Source of the DNA: Candidatus Poseidoniaceae archaeon
GTDB taxonomy: Archaea; Thermoplasmatota; Poseidoniia; Poseidoniales; Poseidoniaceae
Direction: 5' to 3'
Assembly: GCA_938075675.1 (NCBI GenBank)
Contig: CALJHE010000003.1
Location: 1-51,737, forward strand
DNA: 51,737 bases
Positions within the stretch are counted from its first letter, which is position 1. Each line of letters starts with the position of its first letter. Shown in pieces: positions 11,449 to 19,905 of this stretch. Position numbers and translations under genes: made by a program. The notes beneath the pieces are model-generated. The model was given only the letters and a program-made list of their open reading frames with translations, had not been told where the DNA came from and did no database searches.

Positions 11449-12882
11449 TCATTCTTGCTCCCAAAGGTGGGACGGTGTTGAGTCGTAGAATTTTCTGTTG
11501 TATTTCTTCAACCGGCGGATACGATTAATGACAAAGCCAGTCATCCAAAGTGATGCCAGTGAAAGAGCAATGGCTTGCCCCATCAACTCTTCATGATAGT
11601 CGTTCAATACACGAACTTGGATGACATCACCTGACGAGTTTTGACTCGGATTGTGCATCATGATGTAGTGGAACACCATTGGTGACTCAATGACCACTTC
11701 AAGAGTGGCCTGAGGCGCAACATACTGTACTTCACCCAGCGTTTTCACAATGTCCCAATCAATTGTTCCCTCTTCCATCGCTGGCGGAGCAATGTCCACC
11801 ATGAGGACAACCACTTCCATTGTTATGGAATCATCGAGATTCGTTATGTTCGAGTGGACATTCATACCAGGGTCGAATCTCTGAATAATTTCAAAACGAG
11901 AATCATCTGGTCCGAGTTGATACGATATCCGTTCTTCGACCTGAGCTTCTTGGTACTGCACAGCCATGAGGATAGTGGTGAGCATCAAGAGCGCCACAAT
12001 GCCTTCAACAAGCAGGTGTTGTCGGATTTTCTTACTTGTGAATCCTTTGAAGAAACTGCCGTAATCGTTTCTTAGCCGCGGTTGAAGGTGATGAATGAAC
12101 AGCGCTCCTACACCACCGATGAGCATGCCAAGAGGTATGTCGATGAACCAATGAATACCGAGGTAAAGAATGGTAAATACAAACAATGCAGTGTTCAATA
12201 ACACGAACATGTGGTAACGGAAATGCCGCCACTCTCGAAGAGTTCCTCCATTCTCTCTCACATGCAGGTAATTGAGCAGCAGGATTCCGAACGGTATCGC
12301 GACGTGCAGCGAAGGGACTGCATTATCCAGCGGGTCATGCGTTGCATAGAACACGCTGTACCATCCTTCATGGTACAACAACGATTCCATGCCAGGTATC
12401 CATGATGAGGTGACTTCAACATTGAAAAACAAGTAGTAAGGCACTGCAAGAGCGTAAATGAGTAAATAATTTAGGGCAACCTTGTCCGTCATGTCCCGAT
12501 CACCAGTGTAGGCGAAGTACACAGTAGTAACATAAATCAAGAACAGGTAAATGAACAGATAATGGAAGTTAAGAATGGCAGTTAGGGTGTCGTTGAGGAA
12601 GAATTCTTGGACATGTTGAGTCAAATTCCCTTCCAAAGAATACACGGCTTCCGTCCAATGCCCAGTGCGCAACTTAATCGGTTCATTGAGCGTATCTGTA
12701 ATGGATTTCCACTTGATGATAACAATATAGCCCATTGCGTGGAGATAATATCGCTGGTCGTGAAAAACTTGTAACCAGCGTTTCATTGGAATACGCATAT
12801 CTGAGCGATGGGCGGTGAAAGCCCAGCATATGATTGGCGTTAAAACCAAAATGAGCCCCATCATAATTCCATAGGGGTCCAT
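11449..12882 (-). CDS. PAP2-superfamily membrane phosphatase/phosphotransferase with extracytoplasmic domain
   Basis: A 477-residue integral membrane protein. The catalytic PAP2 signatures are DNAVPSLHVAIPFG (PSLH at 190-193) and YLGIHWFIDIPLGMLIGG (His244, Asp248), typical of the Aur1/inositolphosphotransferase-like branch of lipid phosphatases and phosphotransferases. Several helices precede these motifs. After the catalytic core come a further helix near residue 290-305, a beta-rich hydrophilic region of about 120 residues, and a last helix near 445-460 followed by a basic tail. The extra domain is unusual for simple phosphatases. A role in membrane-lipid head-group transfer is inference. 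It is divergent from the glycerophosphodiesterase-like gene, which also concerns phospholipid head groups. Confidence 0.83.
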   Translation of the reverse strand: MDPYGIMMGLILVLTPIICWAFTAHRSDMRIPMKRWLQVFHDQRYYLHAMGYIVIIKWKSITDTLNEPIKLRTGHWTEAVYSLEGNLTQHVQEFFLNDTLTAILNFHYLFIYLFLIYVTTVYFAYTGDRDMTDKVALNYLLIYALAVPYYLFFNVEVTSSWIPGMESLLYHEGWYSVFYATHDPLDNAVPSLHVAIPFGILLLNYLHVRENGGTLREWRHFRYHMFVLLNTALFVFTILYLGIHWFIDIPLGMLIGGVGALFIHHLQPRLRNDYGSFFKGFTSKKIRQHLLVEGIVALLMLTTILMAVQYQEAQVEERISYQLGPDDSRFEIIQRFDPGMNVHSNITNLDDSITMEVVVLMVDIAPPAMEEGTIDWDIVKTLGEVQYVAPQATLEVVIESPMVFHYIMMHNPSQNSSGDVIQVRVLNDYHEELMGQAIALSLASLWMTGFVINRIRRLKKYNRKFYDSTPSHLWEQE

Positions 12883-13009
12883 ATCTTGACGGGCAATGGG
12901 ATTTGATATAGGTATTATGACGAAGATGACGAGGAAATGGGCTTCCAGCCACCCTCGTTGTGCAACACAGAATGATTAGTCTTAGAAAGGAGTTCTTTGT
13001 GGAGATAAC

Positions 13010-14167
13010 ATGGTGCAAAAATGGAAGCAAGCACCAGAGAACACATTGGAGAGTCTTCAGCATGCCATTCGAGTTAACGATGGTATCGAATTTGACCTGC
13101 GACTGACCAGTGATCAAGAACTTGTTCTGCATCACGATGCTGACATTTCAGTGCCAGCATCGAAACGACCACATTCAGTGAAATGGACAGAAAACCATAC
13201 GCTCGATGAATTGACATCGTTCGGTTTTCTATCGTTCAAGGCAATGCTTGCAGATCCGATTCTTCGTTCGGAGTGGCGCGATAAGGGCAAGATGGGCTGC
13301 ATCGAGTTGAAACGTCCTCATCCGAATGCCCTCTACGGTGGTGGTATTTTTGGTAAAAAACAACACATTTCACATGTTCGTAACATGATTGTCAAAGCTG
13401 ATGCAATGCTTGATGAATACGACATTCCTCATGAAAACACGGTATACTATGCATTCCATAACGGAATGAAAGCCTCTGCGAAATTATCCAAAACAAAGCG
13501 CCCTTGGTCGAATTTGACACCCTACATACCGCCTTTTGGAACATACTATACCAAAAGGATGCGAGGGACTCCACATTTTGTGACAACACCTTTGGCCCGC
13601 CTAATCCGTACCAATCGAAATGCAGGTGCATCGATGGCACCGTGTGCCGTCGAATACTTTCTTCCTCCACAGAATTGGATGACTATGGGTCGGCGAGGTA
13701 GCCTGAAGGGCGATCGTATTCGGCGTGTGAATGCACATCAGGGTGGATTTCCGATTTATGTATGGCCTGCAAACCTTGGCACAGAACATGACATACTCGA
13801 AGCCGGTCTAACTGGTCTTACCGATTGTTCAGACCCAAACATGACTTGGTTGCCGTCCAGGCACTTGAGATGGACCCGACCTGCAACTTTGCCCCTTGAT
13901 GCTCAGCAATGCAAGGTTCTGAAATCGGCGACCCAGTCAAATCACCAAGACATCTTGAATCAGCTCCATGAGGAAGTTGTTCCTTGGTCGGAATGCGATA
14001 CTGCGCGTAAGACTGCTCTCGTTGAAATGTGGAAAACGAAATGGCAGTGGAGTGATTCGACAGCTTCCATCCTTGAGCGTTCCAGTAATGCTTCTCCCCC
14101 TTGGGAGGCAATACGGCTAATCGGACATCGTGGTTCAGGCAAGACTTCTCGGCCTGTGCTTAAGTGA
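13010..14167 (+). CDS. Glycerophosphodiester phosphodiesterase-like protein, apparently circularly permuted
   Basis: A 385-residue protein whose start resembles a glycerophosphodiester phosphodiesterase from just after its usual first motif: APENTLESL at 8-16, then GIEFDLRLT (Glu27, Asp29 as metal ligands) and VLHHDADI (His42 as second catalytic His). A third metal Glu is likely Glu99 in GCIELKRP. The normal final barrel strands are seen near 245-275 (PIYVWPAN, GLTGLTDCSDP). The first strand and HRG motif that should open the family are absent at the N-terminus but occur at the extreme C-terminus (IRLIGHRGSGKTSRP, His373-Arg374-Gly375). The start is well set: an in-frame stop lies at 12983 and a GGAG site at 13001-13004. 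Expected role is cleavage of glycerophosphodiesters. Confidence 0.8.
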   Translation: MVQKWKQAPENTLESLQHAIRVNDGIEFDLRLTSDQELVLHHDADISVPASKRPHSVKWTENHTLDELTSFGFLSFKAMLADPILRSEWRDKGKMGCIELKRPHPNALYGGGIFGKKQHISHVRNMIVKADAMLDEYDIPHENTVYYAFHNGMKASAKLSKTKRPWSNLTPYIPPFGTYYTKRMRGTPHFVTTPLARLIRTNRNAGASMAPCAVEYFLPPQNWMTMGRRGSLKGDRIRRVNAHQGGFPIYVWPANLGTEHDILEAGLTGLTDCSDPNMTWLPSRHLRWTRPATLPLDAQQCKVLKSATQSNHQDILNQLHEEVVPWSECDTARKTALVEMWKTKWQWSDSTASILERSSNASPPWEAIRLIGHRGSGKTSRPVLK

Positions 14168-14170
14168 AAT

Positions 14171-15337
14171 TCACTCGATGTGGCGTAGAGATTGTGCTTC
14201 AGCGATGTACTTTGGACGATAGATAGGTGTTCCCTTTCCGTCTCGTAACACAGCCCGTTCATCGACAATTTGAGCGCCAATTCCTGCAACTCGAGCCCAA
14301 CCGAAGAAGGTGGTGTAGTAGGTTGGGTCTGTAAACCCGATGTGGTGAAGAAGTGCACCACTTGCAATGTCTACATTGGCGTTTGGATTGCTGATTTTTG
14401 GGTTCTCGCTGAGTACACGTGGTGCGACTTCCCGCAATGTTGTCACGATTTTGAAGTTTTCATCTTCAGGGCAAATCTCTGCGCCCAGTAGGAATTGGGC
14501 GGTTGCTCGTGGGTCTTCAGCACGGAGGACTGCGTGACCGAAGCCAAAGATTGGGCGCTTTGCTTCAAGTTCGGCTCGAACAAAGGCTTCGACTTCATCA
14601 GGATCACTGGTTCCAACCTTCAAGACGAATTCGAGACATGATTGGTTCGCACGTCCATGAAGGGGGCCGGAAAGTGCGTTCATTGCACCTGCCATTGACG
14701 AATATACAGTAGCCTTTCCGGACGCGATTGCCTTACCTGAGAAGGTCGAAAGATTGCCGCCGCCATGGTCCATGTGGAGTACAAGGTAAGTGGAAATGAC
14801 TCGCTTCATTTTTTCCTTGTCTACACCTTCAAAATCGAGGGCGTGAACGAAACGGTCAACGAGATTCATCGATGCGTCGTCAGCGGGAATGTCGTTTTCT
14901 CGACCTTCTCGGATTCTGAAAATAAGGCCCATCAAACGAGGCATTCGGGCGATGAGATTGAGTGCGTCCTCCTTCCAGTCTTCAGTGGTTTCCAACATTC
15001 CCAAGGTGTGGATACCGATGCTCAACCAATCCATTGGGTGTCCAAACTTTGGTAGAGTTTTGAGGACGGATTCGACATCTCCGGGGATTTCTGCACGAGC
15101 CGCAAGGTCTTGGCGGAATGAGGTCGATTGTTCAGGCGTTGGTAGTTCTTTATTGAACAAGAGGTAAACGATATCCTCGGGGTCAAATTGTGCGAGTTCG
15201 GAAATCGGATAGCCGCAATAGTGAACGCCTTCTGTTGGCGTGACATACGAGGTTCGGCAAGTGCCCACTGGAACGCCACGTAGGCCAGTGTTGAGGTGGT
15301 TCTCAGTCACTTCCAAAAGTACCTTGTTGTCTGCCAA
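14171..15337 (-). CDS. gltA: Citrate synthase
   Basis: A 388-residue citrate synthase, which condenses acetyl-CoA with oxaloacetate to start the citric acid cycle. The catalytic set is present: HMDHGGGNLSTF, then NALSGPLHGRANQ with the first active His, RPIFGFGHAVLRAEDPRA with the oxaloacetate-binding His and Arg, and NANVDIASGALLHHIGF with the catalytic Asp. The C-terminal IYRPKYI resembles the usual CoA and Arg region. Length fits the short archaeal/Gram-positive type rather than the long proteobacterial type. A 2-methylcitrate synthase role cannot be excluded. Its 3' end abuts the glycerophosphodiesterase gene (3-base gap, convergent). Confidence 0.95.
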   Translation of the reverse strand: MADNKVLLEVTENHLNTGLRGVPVGTCRTSYVTPTEGVHYCGYPISELAQFDPEDIVYLLFNKELPTPEQSTSFRQDLAARAEIPGDVESVLKTLPKFGHPMDWLSIGIHTLGMLETTEDWKEDALNLIARMPRLMGLIFRIREGRENDIPADDASMNLVDRFVHALDFEGVDKEKMKRVISTYLVLHMDHGGGNLSTFSGKAIASGKATVYSSMAGAMNALSGPLHGRANQSCLEFVLKVGTSDPDEVEAFVRAELEAKRPIFGFGHAVLRAEDPRATAQFLLGAEICPEDENFKIVTTLREVAPRVLSENPKISNPNANVDIASGALLHHIGFTDPTYYTTFFGWARVAGIGAQIVDERAVLRDGKGTPIYRPKYIAEAQSLRHIE

Positions 15338-15424: not shown

Positions 15425-15898
15425 TCAACGCACTTTCCTATTCCAAGGCGGCCAAGAACGGAATCCTTTGGTCGACTCTCGATCTGCAAAGACGTGAATA
15501 CGAATTGCTTCACCATCGATGATGAGAGCATCATCCGCAGTAAGTCCGGGGCATGTCTCTTTGACTTCCCTCCATGCTCTGTCGGTTGCAAGGTTTTCTG
15601 ACCACCATGGAAAGGCTGCACATTGCTGTGGACGGACTGTATAGATGGTGCATTGTTTGTTCTGGTCAAGATAGATGCAAACATCATCAACTTCACGGCT
15701 TTTGAGTACATAACGTCCGTCGAGAGTTTGACGGCAGTCCCTTTCAAGCCATTCTTCGACTTCCATACCGTGGTGCTTGGAGATGCGTTCCGCATCAGTG
15801 ATTGAGAGGTACACAATTCCACCCGGCTCATCACAGCATTTCCCGCAATTCGCTTGACATGAGAAGGCTACACCTTCCATCCACCATGGTGGCCTCAT
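15425..15898 (-). CDS. YkgJ-family cysteine-cluster protein
   Basis: A 157-residue protein of the YkgJ/CxxCxxCC family. Near the N-terminus Cys14, Cys18, Cys21 and Cys22 form the hallmark FSCQANCGKCCDEPGG, followed by a central CIYLDQNKQCTIYTVRPQQCAAFPWW, which carries the second cysteine group and the typical RPxxC element. The family is predicted to bind a metal or iron-sulfur cluster; functions are mostly unproven. Its start overlaps the stop of the DnaA-like gene by 4 bases, so it is the third gene of an operon with the DUF835 and DnaA-like genes. Citrate synthase starts 87 bases downstream on the same strand. Confidence 0.85.
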   Translation of the reverse strand: MRPPWWMEGVAFSCQANCGKCCDEPGGIVYLSITDAERISKHHGMEVEEWLERDCRQTLDGRYVLKSREVDDVCIYLDQNKQCTIYTVRPQQCAAFPWWSENLATDRAWREVKETCPGLTADDALIIDGEAIRIHVFADRESTKGFRSWPPWNRKVR

Positions 15899-17928
15899 TC
15901 TTCTTCACCCATCACCATAGTTTGAACAGGACGAATTCGCCCCAAACGGATTTTACGAGGTTGCTGAGAATCGCTTAGCAAATCCATCATATCAACGCTG
16001 CCTGAATCAACATTCCATTCCCCGTCGGGTTCGTGACTGTCGAGTGGGTCTGCGACTTTGCTTGGCTTCCTGCGGTTTGCTTTTCGCCTCTCCTTGCGAA
16101 CACTGTCTTCTTCCATTTCAGGCCAAGGTTCTCGGTCGGGGTCAAACTCAGTGAGGTTACTCTCCATTTTTCGCAATTCGTCTGCGATGCCGATCAATTC
16201 CTCAATTGATGCTTCAGAGGTACGCTCTGAGAGGTCATGAAGTTGAGATTCAAGGTTTCCAAGTTGGATGGAACTCTCGATCAAGTCACGTTCAAACGAG
16301 TTGATTCGATGATCAAATGCTTCATCCAACTCTGTCAACACATCCGCAGCCAAACCGTAGTCTCGCTCTTCAATACGGCCTTGGCGAGCGATGAGGTGTT
16401 GTTCTCTCTCATTGAGGTCAAGGACGGAACGTGCAGCAGGAGCAGTGTCTTCCAGTGCGATTTTCAGATATTCTGCATGCCTGCGTTGACCGGATGCTGC
16501 GAGCTCGTAGGCATCGAGTTCAGGTGGCATGTACTCGTCGTCGCCGATTTCTGGTAATTTCGAATAGAGGTCGATTCCTCCATGTACTTCATCGCTGTAA
16601 ACGGTGTCGACTGCCGTATTGATGAGACGCATAGCAATGTCTTCCACTTTTTCACGTTGGAGCGATTGATCGGCAGTCGTCCTTTTGAGTTGGTTTGACA
16701 ACAAGGCAGTGACATCTTCTCCATCCAGTACTTCATCGCCGGACTGGAGTGCAAGGGCAACCAAATCGAAATTTGCCTTGGTTGAATGCCATCCAATGGT
16801 ATCTTTGAGCACCAGGCTGGCCAACTGACTGTCGTTCATCATCAGTCCTTTCTTGATGGCAAGGTGGCGGGCATACAAGACCATGCTCGAGGATTGAGGT
16901 ACCTCAAGATGAACCGATGCAGCATGTCGGGTGAGTTCCCACAGCCGTGAAGTCGGCCAATCGTCGGGAGTGCTTTTGGAAGTGATTAATACATGCACGC
17001 CAAGATTCAGAGCGTAGTCGATCATGAGTCCAAGTTCATGTGCAAGTTCCGGATGGGCAACGCTTGAATCAATGTCGTCAATGGCAAGCAGCCTTGCATT
17101 CACCAACGAGTCTTGCCATCCATCCGGTAGCCGTTCCAAGCCTGCTAATTCAGCGCTGGTAAGCATGTACACATCCCCCTCTTGTCGACGGAGTACTGCT
17201 TGTGCAGTTGCGTGGAGCAGATGCGTCCTTCCAGTTTGCGAGGCGCCAATAAAGAGAAGGGGGTTGAGTTGGCCTCCAGGTGAATCAACAACAGCCTCTG
17301 CTGCCTGTGTCGCACGGGTGTTTTCCGGGACGTTGAACCATTGTTTGAAACTCTTGCGAACTTCTGGGCGAAGTCTCAGAGGCCATGCTCCTCCGGTTGG
17401 CAAAACCACGCTGTGATGAAACGGTGAGGTTTCTTCAGGTGGTGCCAACTCTTCAGAGAGGGTATGAGTCGCTCGGCCACGGTGGCCATCGAGTACGGAT
17501 TTCCATACGGGGCTTCCATCGTGTTCCATTCCCAAGTAGGTGTCTTCGACAGGATCGATTTGCTGTTCTATGGATTCGAAAGTTCGCTGCCGCAGAGAGC
17601 GAATACGGCGTGCTGCAATGTCAGCGAGTGAATCGCCATTGGACTGAAGTTCAATTGCAGGTTTTCTTTGCTTGCTTTGTTTACCAAGTACACCATCAGC
17701 GACCAAGTCAAAGGTTGGCCGCTCAACGATTCCAGTTCTTTGCAGTAGAGTTCCTTGGCGACGATCGATAACGTCGTTTTTACCCAACAATCGGTTGAGT
17801 TTGGAGTTTGATGTTTCAGAATTTGAGTCCTTCTTCGGGGTGACTCGTTCGATACCGGTGCCGCTGTAGTCGATTTTTTGTCGAGCCAGCTCAAGTGCTA
17901 GGGCGAGTTTCTCACGGCGAACGCTCAT
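15895..17928 (-). CDS. DnaA-like AAA+ protein with Lys-to-Arg P-loop and no DNA-binding domain IV
   Basis: A 677-residue protein. Residues about 193-400 resemble the ATPase domain III of bacterial DnaA: FNVPENTRATQAAEAVVDSPGG, then NPLLFIGASQTGRTHLLHATAQ, a Walker B LLAIDDID (280-287), a sensor-1-like LITSKSTPDDW and an Arg-rich ELTRH. The P-loop reads GASQTGRT (228-235), with Arg234 where Lys is expected, which should weaken nucleotide hydrolysis. The first 170 residues look disordered and the C-terminal 250 residues are charged and partly coiled-coil; no DnaA-type helix-turn-helix signature is seen. It overlaps the DUF835 gene and the YkgJ gene by 4 bases each. Family membership is clear; a role in replication is not. 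Confidence 0.75.
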   Translation of the reverse strand: MSVRREKLALALELARQKIDYSGTGIERVTPKKDSNSETSNSKLNRLLGKNDVIDRRQGTLLQRTGIVERPTFDLVADGVLGKQSKQRKPAIELQSNGDSLADIAARRIRSLRQRTFESIEQQIDPVEDTYLGMEHDGSPVWKSVLDGHRGRATHTLSEELAPPEETSPFHHSVVLPTGGAWPLRLRPEVRKSFKQWFNVPENTRATQAAEAVVDSPGGQLNPLLFIGASQTGRTHLLHATAQAVLRRQEGDVYMLTSAELAGLERLPDGWQDSLVNARLLAIDDIDSSVAHPELAHELGLMIDYALNLGVHVLITSKSTPDDWPTSRLWELTRHAASVHLEVPQSSSMVLYARHLAIKKGLMMNDSQLASLVLKDTIGWHSTKANFDLVALALQSGDEVLDGEDVTALLSNQLKRTTADQSLQREKVEDIAMRLINTAVDTVYSDEVHGGIDLYSKLPEIGDDEYMPPELDAYELAASGQRRHAEYLKIALEDTAPAARSVLDLNEREQHLIARQGRIEERDYGLAADVLTELDEAFDHRINSFERDLIESSIQLGNLESQLHDLSERTSEASIEELIGIADELRKMESNLTEFDPDREPWPEMEEDSVRKERRKANRRKPSKVADPLDSHEPDGEWNVDSGSVDMMDLLSDSQQPRKIRLGRIRPVQTMVMGEEE

Positions 17929-19898
17929 TTCTCCTTCGCCTCCATATCCTTGCGAAGCCGTTCTCTGTCTTCAACTTCCCACACGCTGAGTTTGTCTTCA
18001 AGCGAAGGTTTTGATTGCCGACGAAACGCACCTTCTCTGCTTGGCTTATCACCTTGGCTTTGTGCCATGGCGCCTGGTCGGGCCATGTGTGGAGTCAGTG
18101 AGGTTTCCGTATCGACTGGCATCCTGTCCTTGACCGCTTCAAGTGGTCTGTTGGCAAGAGGAGTTTCTGGAAGCCTGTGTTCTCGTGAATTGACATGTTG
18201 CCGAGTAGCATCCAATACCGATGAGTTCATTCGTGGGATAACTGTCATTTTTTCTACCGCTTTTTCTTGGCGGTTGGCATACGTGCTAAGGCTTGAGGAT
18301 ATTGCTTGTGGAGGTTGTCTCTTCCCTTTGTCGATATCGCTGAGTTCCTTCGCTTCTGGTGCATTGCGGACTGCTGCAAACAGTGCGAGTTGTTTCTTGC
18401 GATTGGGCCGTACAATGGCCTTCTTCTTTTTTCTGCGAACTTTTTGTGCTCGCCGTGGGGCAGCGGGTGGAGCGATGTACGGTTGTTGCTTACTTACTTG
18501 AGCCGGTACACTTTCCTTCACGTCCATCTCGATTTCGGTTGCATCGGATGCGTGTGATATGGATGCTGTGGCAGATGTTTGGTATGTTGTAGATTCCTGT
18601 TGCGTCGGTTCCTGAAGGGGATTGTTTTGAATTGAAACTTCATCCGATTCTGGTTCTACAGTATCTTTTTTACTTTCAGTGTTCCATTCCTGCACTACGG
18701 AATGAAGGGATTCTGTAGCGGCTTGTACCTCTTCGGATTCTGGGGCATCCAACCCACCTTCCATTGTCCCGAACACACTTGATTGCGGTGCGATTGGTCC
18801 ACCGCTTGAAGAAGAAATCGCTTGTTGGAGTTGTTGTTCAATCCACTGCCTCTCTTCTTCACTGGCAGGAGCGCAAAGTGGGTGGTCTAACAGAAGGTCA
18901 GGTTCAAGATTCCAGTGTTCCAATACCGATGCATCGAGGTCAGTCATGTAGCGCGAGAGGTGCTGACGGGTGGTCAAGGAGAAGGCATTGAAGTCAGCAG
19001 TTGTGAGGAACAAGTGGTCTTCTAATCGAACTCCGTCAACAATATCTCGCAGGAAATTGACGATTCGGTCGTCACCGTGCAGGCTGGAGAGATATTCTAT
19101 CCCTTCGAGAACCACAACTGCACGAAGGTTTTCCCAGAGGAAAGCGTCAATCCTTCGACGAATGTTGTCCAGACTCGGCTCGATGGATTTCTTTCCGTTG
19201 CTTTGTGATAGCCAACTGCTGGATGCGATAGGGATATTGTGCTGGACATTGAGTGATTCAACATCGTGCCGGGCAAGAACAAGTAACGGTCGTCCGTGCA
19301 CAGCCAATTGGCCAGCGAGGTCGAAAAGCGGTGATGGGTCTGCAGAGTCAAAGAAGTAGGCATCACCTGGTCGAATCATTTTTTCCAGCCCCTCGAACCG
19401 TTGCACCATTGCTCGACTGCGATGCCGAAGTGCTTCTGGTGCTTCGACAACCGATTCCATTTCAGGGAGTCGTTCTTCTCGACGCCAACTGCTCGTCCGA
19501 TACCTTGCCTTCGACCACCATTGGTGATTTTCTTGCTTTGTATTCGTATTTGGATCGGATTGAAAGTGGGCCTCAGGATAGAGATTGAGTACTCTGTCCA
19601 TGTCTGAAAGTGGTAATTCGTGTACTGCAATCAAAGAGTCGAGTAAGGCACAATCGCTCTCGATGTCAAGTAATGCCTCGAGGGCCATACTGATTGAGTC
19701 GGTTTCGTGAAGAGCCATCATAGGCGTCCCATCTTTGAACGCAATGTGACCTATTCGTGGCATCTCATCCTTTGGCCGGCGCTCAATTCGCAGGTAACCC
19801 GTTGTGGATAGCCGTGCAATGTCTGACGACAGAAGTTGCAACGAATCTGGTCCTCCGCGTCGGACTTCCGTAACATCTCCTTGCGGTAATTCCACCAT
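17925..19898 (-). CDS. DUF835-type multidomain protein
   Basis: About 657 residues from ATG 19898; a GTG at 19904 is the alternative. An N-terminal domain (about 1-115; GYLRIERR..., IGHIAFKDGTPMMALHE) resembles the DUF2226/DUF4388 class of regulatory modules. The middle (about 178-330) fits DUF835: DAYFFDSADP, PLLVLARHDVES, a short IDAFLWENLRAVVVLEGIEYLSSL-like strand/helix with the VLxGxEYL signature, and HLFLTTADFNAF. DUF835 domains occur in archaeal signalling proteins. The remaining 330 residues are disordered, with a Lys/Arg-rich patch near 470-500 that may bind nucleic acid or membrane. It is first in the operon with the DnaA-like and YkgJ genes; a hairpin covers its ribosome site. Confidence 0.7.
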   Translation of the reverse strand: MVELPQGDVTEVRRGGPDSLQLLSSDIARLSTTGYLRIERRPKDEMPRIGHIAFKDGTPMMALHETDSISMALEALLDIESDCALLDSLIAVHELPLSDMDRVLNLYPEAHFQSDPNTNTKQENHQWWSKARYRTSSWRREERLPEMESVVEAPEALRHRSRAMVQRFEGLEKMIRPGDAYFFDSADPSPLFDLAGQLAVHGRPLLVLARHDVESLNVQHNIPIASSSWLSQSNGKKSIEPSLDNIRRRIDAFLWENLRAVVVLEGIEYLSSLHGDDRIVNFLRDIVDGVRLEDHLFLTTADFNAFSLTTRQHLSRYMTDLDASVLEHWNLEPDLLLDHPLCAPASEEERQWIEQQLQQAISSSSGGPIAPQSSVFGTMEGGLDAPESEEVQAATESLHSVVQEWNTESKKDTVEPESDEVSIQNNPLQEPTQQESTTYQTSATASISHASDATEIEMDVKESVPAQVSKQQPYIAPPAAPRRAQKVRRKKKKAIVRPNRKKQLALFAAVRNAPEAKELSDIDKGKRQPPQAISSSLSTYANRQEKAVEKMTVIPRMNSSVLDATRQHVNSREHRLPETPLANRPLEAVKDRMPVDTETSLTPHMARPGAMAQSQGDKPSREGAFRRQSKPSLEDKLSVWEVEDRERLRKDMEAKEK

Positions 19899-19905
19899 GT
19901 TCACT

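Follow-up and report, generated by a model that had tools for sequence, protein, structure and literature searches.

Glycerophosphodiester phosphodiesterases (GDPDs, PF03009) act through two histidines, one of them that of the HRG motif, which form an acid/base pair, with acidic residues binding the metal. Barrel strand 8 is the last strand of an ordinary GDPD, whose PENT motif comes after HRG. The motif list of the GDPD domain, in the part of PMC3482391 available, comprises HRG, E, ExD, D and H. An example with a known structure is the Thermoanaerobacter tengcongensis enzyme (2pz0). Natural permutations of TIM barrels are, to our knowledge, few. One such case is transaldolase and class I aldolase, whose (β/α)8 barrels are, in the available part of PMC2213659, rotated in order relative to each other by a shift of two α/β units, the two enzymes differing in function. 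The gene described here very probably encodes a GDPD whose (β/α)8 barrel is naturally circularly permuted, with strand 1 closing the barrel from the C-terminal end and with catalysis predicted. Such a protein would share with the transaldolase/aldolase pair the rotated barrel order but differ from it, as far as the same part of PMC2213659 describes that pair, in that one strand moves, the cut lies inside an active-site loop and family membership can still be read from the sequence.

Motif order in the window protein

The window is the whole stretch of DNA that was analysed, 51,737 nucleotides of contig CALJHE010000003.1 from a Candidatus Poseidoniaceae archaeon, whose genome (1.89 Mb, 44 contigs, 90% complete) has Poseidoniales as its nearest named relatives. 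A preliminary description of this DNA, made from the letters alone, had reported a 385-residue open reading frame with rearranged GDPD motifs, an in-frame stop upstream and a GGAG ahead of the ATG; the frame and motifs are seen in the translation, and both upstream signals are present in the sequence. The features of the locus are as follows.

11449..12882, − strand: PAP2-superfamily protein (PF01569), 477 aa, divergent neighbour
12983–12985, + strand: in-frame stop TAG upstream of the ATG at 13010
13001..13004, + strand: GGAG, possible ribosome binding site before the ATG at 13010
13010..14167, + strand: putative permuted GDPD gene, 385 aa plus stop (translation; PF03009, 48.1 bits)
13034..13045, + strand: PENT motif, residues 9–12, start of helix 1; N11 invariant in 31 and 52 aligned sequences
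13088..13096, + strand: ExD motif, Glu27 and Asp29, invariant, on barrel strand 2 (residues 25–32)
13130..13138, + strand: HHD, with invariant His42 as second catalytic histidine by homology
13304..13312, + strand: Glu99-x-Lys101, invariant, at the end of barrel strand 3 (95–100, a strand in the model)
13811..13822, + strand: barrel strand 8, residues 268–271 (model; matches the C-terminal part of normal GDPDs in the alignment)
13823..14116, + strand: residues 272–369, connector between strand 8 and the presumed relocated strand 1 (model)
14117..14128, + strand: predicted relocated barrel strand 1, residues 370–373 (LIGH; strand in the model)
14126..14134, + strand: HRG (His373, Arg374, Gly375), first catalytic motif, at a conserved C-terminal position
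14171..15337, − strand: citrate synthase (PF00285), convergent neighbour

The Pfam score of the protein is above the PF03009 cut-off of 23.6 bits, and the match spans residues 7–72 only. It starts at profile position 7, without the HRG strand, so the HRG-bearing first strand is missing where the profile expects a strand. The motif residues of GDPDs are all in the protein: E10 within APENT (residues 8–12), E27 and D29 within GIEFDLRLT (25–33), H42 and D43 within VLHHD (39–43), and H373-R374-G375; CIELK occupies residues 97–101. We read D43 as the single D of the motif list in the available part of PMC3482391. The HRG lies 10 residues before the C-terminus, in the terminal region IRLIGHRGSGKT, which holds His373, and no opening HRG strand is found on the N-terminal side. 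Residues 368–382 read IRLIGHRGSGKTSRP, and the C-terminal end of the protein reads PPWEAIRLIGHRGSGKTSRPVLK. Thus, whereas in ordinary GDPDs HRG precedes ENT, ExD and HD, here PENT stands near the N-terminus and HRG at residues 373–375 of 385; because HRG ends the chain instead of opening it, we class the protein as a permuted variant and not as an ordinary member of the family.

Compared with GDPDs of the 2pz0 type, ENT, ExD and HD align residue by residue (in the 2pz0 chain, Glu27, Asp29 and His42 fall on positions 44, 46 and 59), and the HRG motif and barrel fold are shared, the fold of the window protein being taken from a model. The window protein differs in that its HRG strand comes last, after strand 8, its chain starts just before helix 1, and a 98-residue helical connector follows strand 8. 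The enzyme chemistry would be expected to be that of ordinary GDPDs, in an order of chain elements that we did not find described for the GDPD family.

Conservation and selection across Poseidoniales

Relatives of the protein were found in 55 of 59 genomes, its own included, and the same search gave none in G024, G034, G042 and G050. The C-terminus was readable in 54 of the 55 (the contig of G009 ends first and was left out), and 53 of these carry a C-terminal HRG, the exception being G037. A second scan, of genome contigs, used the best 80 of 355 confirmed relatives: 76 loci span the full length and carry HRG at the C-terminus, two (L107 and L116) have the C-terminal HRG with a broken or partial 5′ part, and two (L080 and L138) run off their contigs, giving 78 of 78 readable loci. 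In a third set of 20 loci, mostly from further genera, 19 show HRG at the C-terminus and the remaining one is truncated by the end of its contig. Some species are shared among the three sets, whose loci were not selected for HRG. At least one case was seen in each of the 21 genera labelled within the order Poseidoniales (g1–g21). The motif order, whose conservation in other Poseidoniales the preliminary description had proposed as a check, is thus kept, and this conservation excludes chance as the source of the C-terminal HRG. The permuted order is also carried by a 2.06-Mb chromosome record (CM001443.1, locus L073) and by AG-333-I22 and AH-273-O19 (L067 and L084), which from their naming convention we take to be single-cell genomes.

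The gene in G037 (L050) stops before HRG and is followed by the end of the citrate synthase gene, reflecting either a deletion or an assembly fault; this genome also has a second GDPD-like open reading frame (G037:C26:42951-43292). Members of genus g13 have a connector about 40 residues shorter with the HRG strand kept (L202–L204, L217 and L218; open frames of 343–367 aa), the shortest permuted form among the full-length frames of the relatives search and the 20-locus set.

Two alignments, of 31 (A1) and 52 (A2) sequences, show N11, E27, D29, H42, E99, K101, R369 and G377 as invariant, together with W326 and W347, with E10 and D43 nearly invariant in A1 and invariant in A2. H373-R374-G375 is invariant in both, but the choice of rows favoured HRG, since A2 rows were chosen for a C-terminal HRG and A1 excludes L015 (contig end) and L050 (no HRG), so the counts of genomes and loci, not the alignments, are the evidence for HRG itself.

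The gene is under strong purifying selection. Nine relatives were each paired with the window gene, and synonymous sites were unsaturated in three pairs (L059, L060 and L061), in which whole-gene dN/dS was 0.068–0.090. Values for residues 361–385 in the three closest pairs were 0.195, 0.067 and 0.111, on few changes, and in two of the three they are not below the whole-gene value. Non-synonymous difference across all nine pairs was 0.000–0.056 in residues 361–385 and up to 0.338 in residues 280–360.

Genomic context and distribution

Of the best 80 of 355 loci, 78 have citrate synthase downstream of the gene, in every case on the opposite strand, and the contigs of the other two end; in the 76 loci measured among these 80, the distance from the GDPD stop to the aligned end of citrate synthase ranges from −9 to 97 nt. 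The retention of this convergent neighbour indicates that the loci are the same. The divergent neighbour in the window has its PAP2 domain at residues 182–269 of 477 and a long extra part besides. A PAP2 relative occurs in 67 of the best 80 of 355 loci, 66 times on the opposite strand, and among the 13 without one, L062 and L120 lie at contig ends. Given this association, the PAP2 protein and the putative permuted GDPD may share regulation or a lipid pathway. Elsewhere in the window, a 677-aa open reading frame (15895–17928, −) has a match to a bacterial DnaA ATPase domain (PF00308, 2.4e-9, residues 192–322), in an archaeon, and adjoins a 659-aa frame (17925–19904, −).

The preliminary description had named relatives with an N-terminal HRG at the same locus as evidence against a permutation; none is found among the 76 full-length loci in the best 80 of 355. 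An in-frame stop lies within 10 codons upstream of the residue-1 equivalent in 39 of these 76 and within three codons in 13, where it leaves no space for an N-terminal HRG. L098 alone shows an HRG in frame, roughly 11 codons upstream. It adjoins an unread base, precedes the likely start codon and is missing from the related L113 and L120. When the three plus-strand frames were read over 400 nt upstream of the same 76 loci, strings of a hydrophobic residue plus HRG occurred 12 times, once each in 12 loci, at 132–221 nt from the gene, where they adjoin stops and fall within the PAP2 gene of the opposite strand. A missed N-terminal HRG is rejected by the upstream stops and the position of these stray strings. 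An internal HRG near residue 150 of some orthologues falls in the variable strand-4 region and was discounted.

Across 389 genomes of the phylum, matches reaching the C-terminal end were confined, among the matches listed, to families f1 and f2, and those outside f1 and f2 cover at most residues 6–104. NCBI names two families in Poseidoniales, Poseidoniaceae and Thalassarchaeaceae, to which we infer that f1 and f2 correspond. The restriction to Poseidoniales is drawn from the matches listed for the 389 genomes and from the best 80 of 355 relatives. The only other family of the class sampled, f3, is probably Marine Group III; PF03009 matches were seen in 17 of its 21 genomes, all starting at profile position 1. 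HRG is on the N-terminal side in all 18 normal GDPDs that were read. Several f2 genomes have, beside the permuted gene, a second GDPD-like open reading frame of about 190–236 aa, matching PF03009 from position 2 or 3 and apparently in normal order (for example G399:C5:20866-21198 and G053:C8:3870-4202). The window's own genome has no second PF03009 match, the permuted gene being the only one. Viral contigs, plasmids and phages gave no relatives at the limits used, and PHROGs gave weak matches only, to residues 6–48.

Comparison with normally ordered GDPDs

The normal-order GDPDs of f3 (L171–L186) belong to the same fold family but carry HRG no further than residue 87 of the open frame (16 of 16), in contrast to residues 373–375 in the window protein, and their open frames of 230–309 aa are too short to hold the connector. 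We aligned a profile of 52 permuted sequences with hhalign against a profile of 18 normal archaeal GDPDs (the 16 from f3 and two from f2). The native order scored 89.1 (P 6.8e-12) and aligned from template column 13. With the C-terminal strand put first, the score was 103.9 (P 4.5e-14), the alignment began at column 2 with HRG on HRG, and 221 columns were covered. None of the controls reached this score: another piece of the linker in front gave 88.4, removal of the C-terminus 89.2 and a scrambled piece in front 89.0, the last also starting at template column 2 without a gain in score. On their own, the last ~43 residues line up with the HRG-bearing start of the normal profile (columns 2–17, P 4.6e-4).

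Rotation of single sequences raised the Pfam score by 2.8 bits for the window protein, 1.6 for L073, 5.7 for L118 and 6.0 for L131, against 0.5 and 0.4 bits in two controls; three of the four rotated sequences match PF03009 from position 1, and L073 from position 9. Against single PDB sequences rotation hardly helps (2pz0, E 0.0046 to 0.0024), and the matches still begin after HRG, a result that neither helps nor hurts the permutation reading. As judged by the profiles, the rotated order fits unpermuted homologues better than do the native order and the controls, in line with the earlier proposal that joining the C- and N-terminus restores a normal GDPD opening.

Fold model

The AlphaFold2 model of the window protein, built with 52 sequences, has a pLDDT of 93.1 and a pTM of 0.92. 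Its strands are at residues 25–32, 95–100, 144–148, 166–168, 210–213, 249–252, 268–271 and 370–373, plus a short one at 38–40. The blocks 361–370 and 371–380 have pLDDT values of 93 and 94, and the last five residues 73. The preliminary description had counted a model that leaves the terminal HRG outside the barrel as evidence against a permutation; in this model, as had been anticipated for the terminal residues, 370–373 form a strand, and there are only seven other barrel strands. We assign these seven, between residues 25 and 271, to the part of the barrel before the connector and the terminal strand as the probable eighth, which the strand count would place between strands 8 and 2. The linker before the terminal HRG, put at 80 residues in the preliminary description, is longer: 98 residues with four helices (298–305, 312–322, 331–345 and 351–357) separate strands 268–271 and 370–373 in the model.

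A Foldseek search of the PDB returned a list led by GDPDs (5t91, E 1.2e-7; 2pz0, 1.5e-7), and among the 50 best matches, at 12–18% identity, the only titles that are not GDPDs are 7wwc and 7ww4, a beta-1,3(4)-glucanase. The modelled fold is consistent with an eight-stranded TIM barrel of the GDPD type, with the presumed placement of strand 1 taken from the strand count. The model of a distant orthologue (L131, 10 sequences) is poor, with a pLDDT of 67.5 and residues 356–374 below 50, though a strand is drawn at 360–363, so the terminal strand is confidently modelled in the window protein only. Coevolution analysis, at an effective number of 26 sequences, gave a weak signal: it placed the pair T12–S376 about 46th of 72,010, and other high-ranking pairs do not fit.

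Alternative explanations

The reading as a circular permutation, first put forward from the motif order, is supported by the conservation of that order, the rotation test and one confident fold model. The same terminal strand might instead complete the barrel of a neighbouring subunit, making an obligate oligomer with a two-chain active site. The strand does end a long connector of variable length, which is a usual setting for a swap, but the model of one chain alone already forms the strand with high confidence, and the g13 proteins keep the strand on a connector shorter by about 40 residues, which leans towards closure within one chain; we regard the swap as unlikely. It is very unlikely that the protein is a barrel without strand 1 that is no longer a GDPD, plugged by an HRG tail with a non-catalytic role. 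The activity of the window protein is a prediction, and its identity to known structures is low, as this proposal would have it, but the residues for catalysis and metal binding do not vary in the alignments, and purifying selection on the gene is strong.

We give almost no credence to an origin of the terminal HRG in a misassembly or in the remnant of a tandem duplication, in which HRG would belong to a second GDPD copy and the true N-terminus would have been missed. Tandem duplication is a textbook route to permutation, and G037 does hold a truncated form; against this, the same order recurs in many separate assemblies, including the chromosome record and the two presumed single-cell genomes, 13 of the 76 complete loci among the best 80 of 355 have an in-frame stop no more than three codons upstream, the convergent citrate synthase follows in 78 of those 80, and the window's own genome has no second PF03009 match. 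This explanation is largely refuted. Equally improbable in the extreme is a Walker A (P-loop) nucleotide-binding motif with an accidental likeness to HRG. GHRGSGKT fits [AG]x4GK[ST], and the pattern recurs within the final 45 residues in 79 of 102 sequences, which were chosen for HRG near the end, so that HRG itself is no evidence there. In the same sequences the residues kept are R369 and G377 (102 of 102) and G372 (101 of 102), but K378 is lysine in only 87 and otherwise R, E, S, D or V. Pfam found no P-loop domain at E values up to 10, and the C-terminal residues match the HRG opening of the GDPD profile. A P-loop protein was rejected, as the Lys and Ser/Thr of GK[ST] are not conserved.

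Predicted function and origin

Under the permutation reading, the chain would be cut after HRG and before ENT, in the loop that links strand 1 to helix 1 and lies at the active-site mouth, and both termini should therefore sit there. The helical connector would bridge the old ends by linking strand 8 to strand 1, leaving strand 1 with HRG as the last element of the chain, where it would complete the barrel by taking the place between strands 8 and 2. The predicted acid/base pair consists of His42 and the C-terminal His373, and Glu27, Asp29 and Glu99 would hold the metal, as in ordinary GDPDs. The predicted products are glycerol phosphate and an alcohol. Inspection by eye shows neither a signal peptide nor a membrane segment at the N-terminus, so the protein is probably cytosolic, with a predicted role in recycling glycerophosphodiesters to glycerol phosphate in the cytosol.

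The permutation probably arose once, before the two Poseidoniales families split, and would have been passed on by vertical descent. Circular permutations usually arise when a gene is duplicated in tandem and the outer parts are then lost, a route that probably operated here; no intermediate was found among the loci examined.

Implications

The preliminary description knew of no permuted GDPD, and we found no report of one in the open-access literature, where absence is no proof. It is likely that this is a natural GDPD permutation fixed across Poseidoniales and cut in the β1–α1 catalytic loop, possibly the first in the PLC-like phosphodiesterase superfamily, with both chain ends flanking the active site and one catalytic histidine supplied by the last dozen or so residues. 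The linear order of motifs misleads annotation, as Pfam sees residues 7–72 only, in a genome without another PF03009 match. The g13 forms with their short connector are a good choice for structure work. This seems to be a barrel enzyme re-cut by nature inside its own active site, and because the parent family is evident, the catalytic residues have stayed the same and relatives in normal order occur in the same class, the survival of a barrel after a cut in its active-site loop is directly testable.
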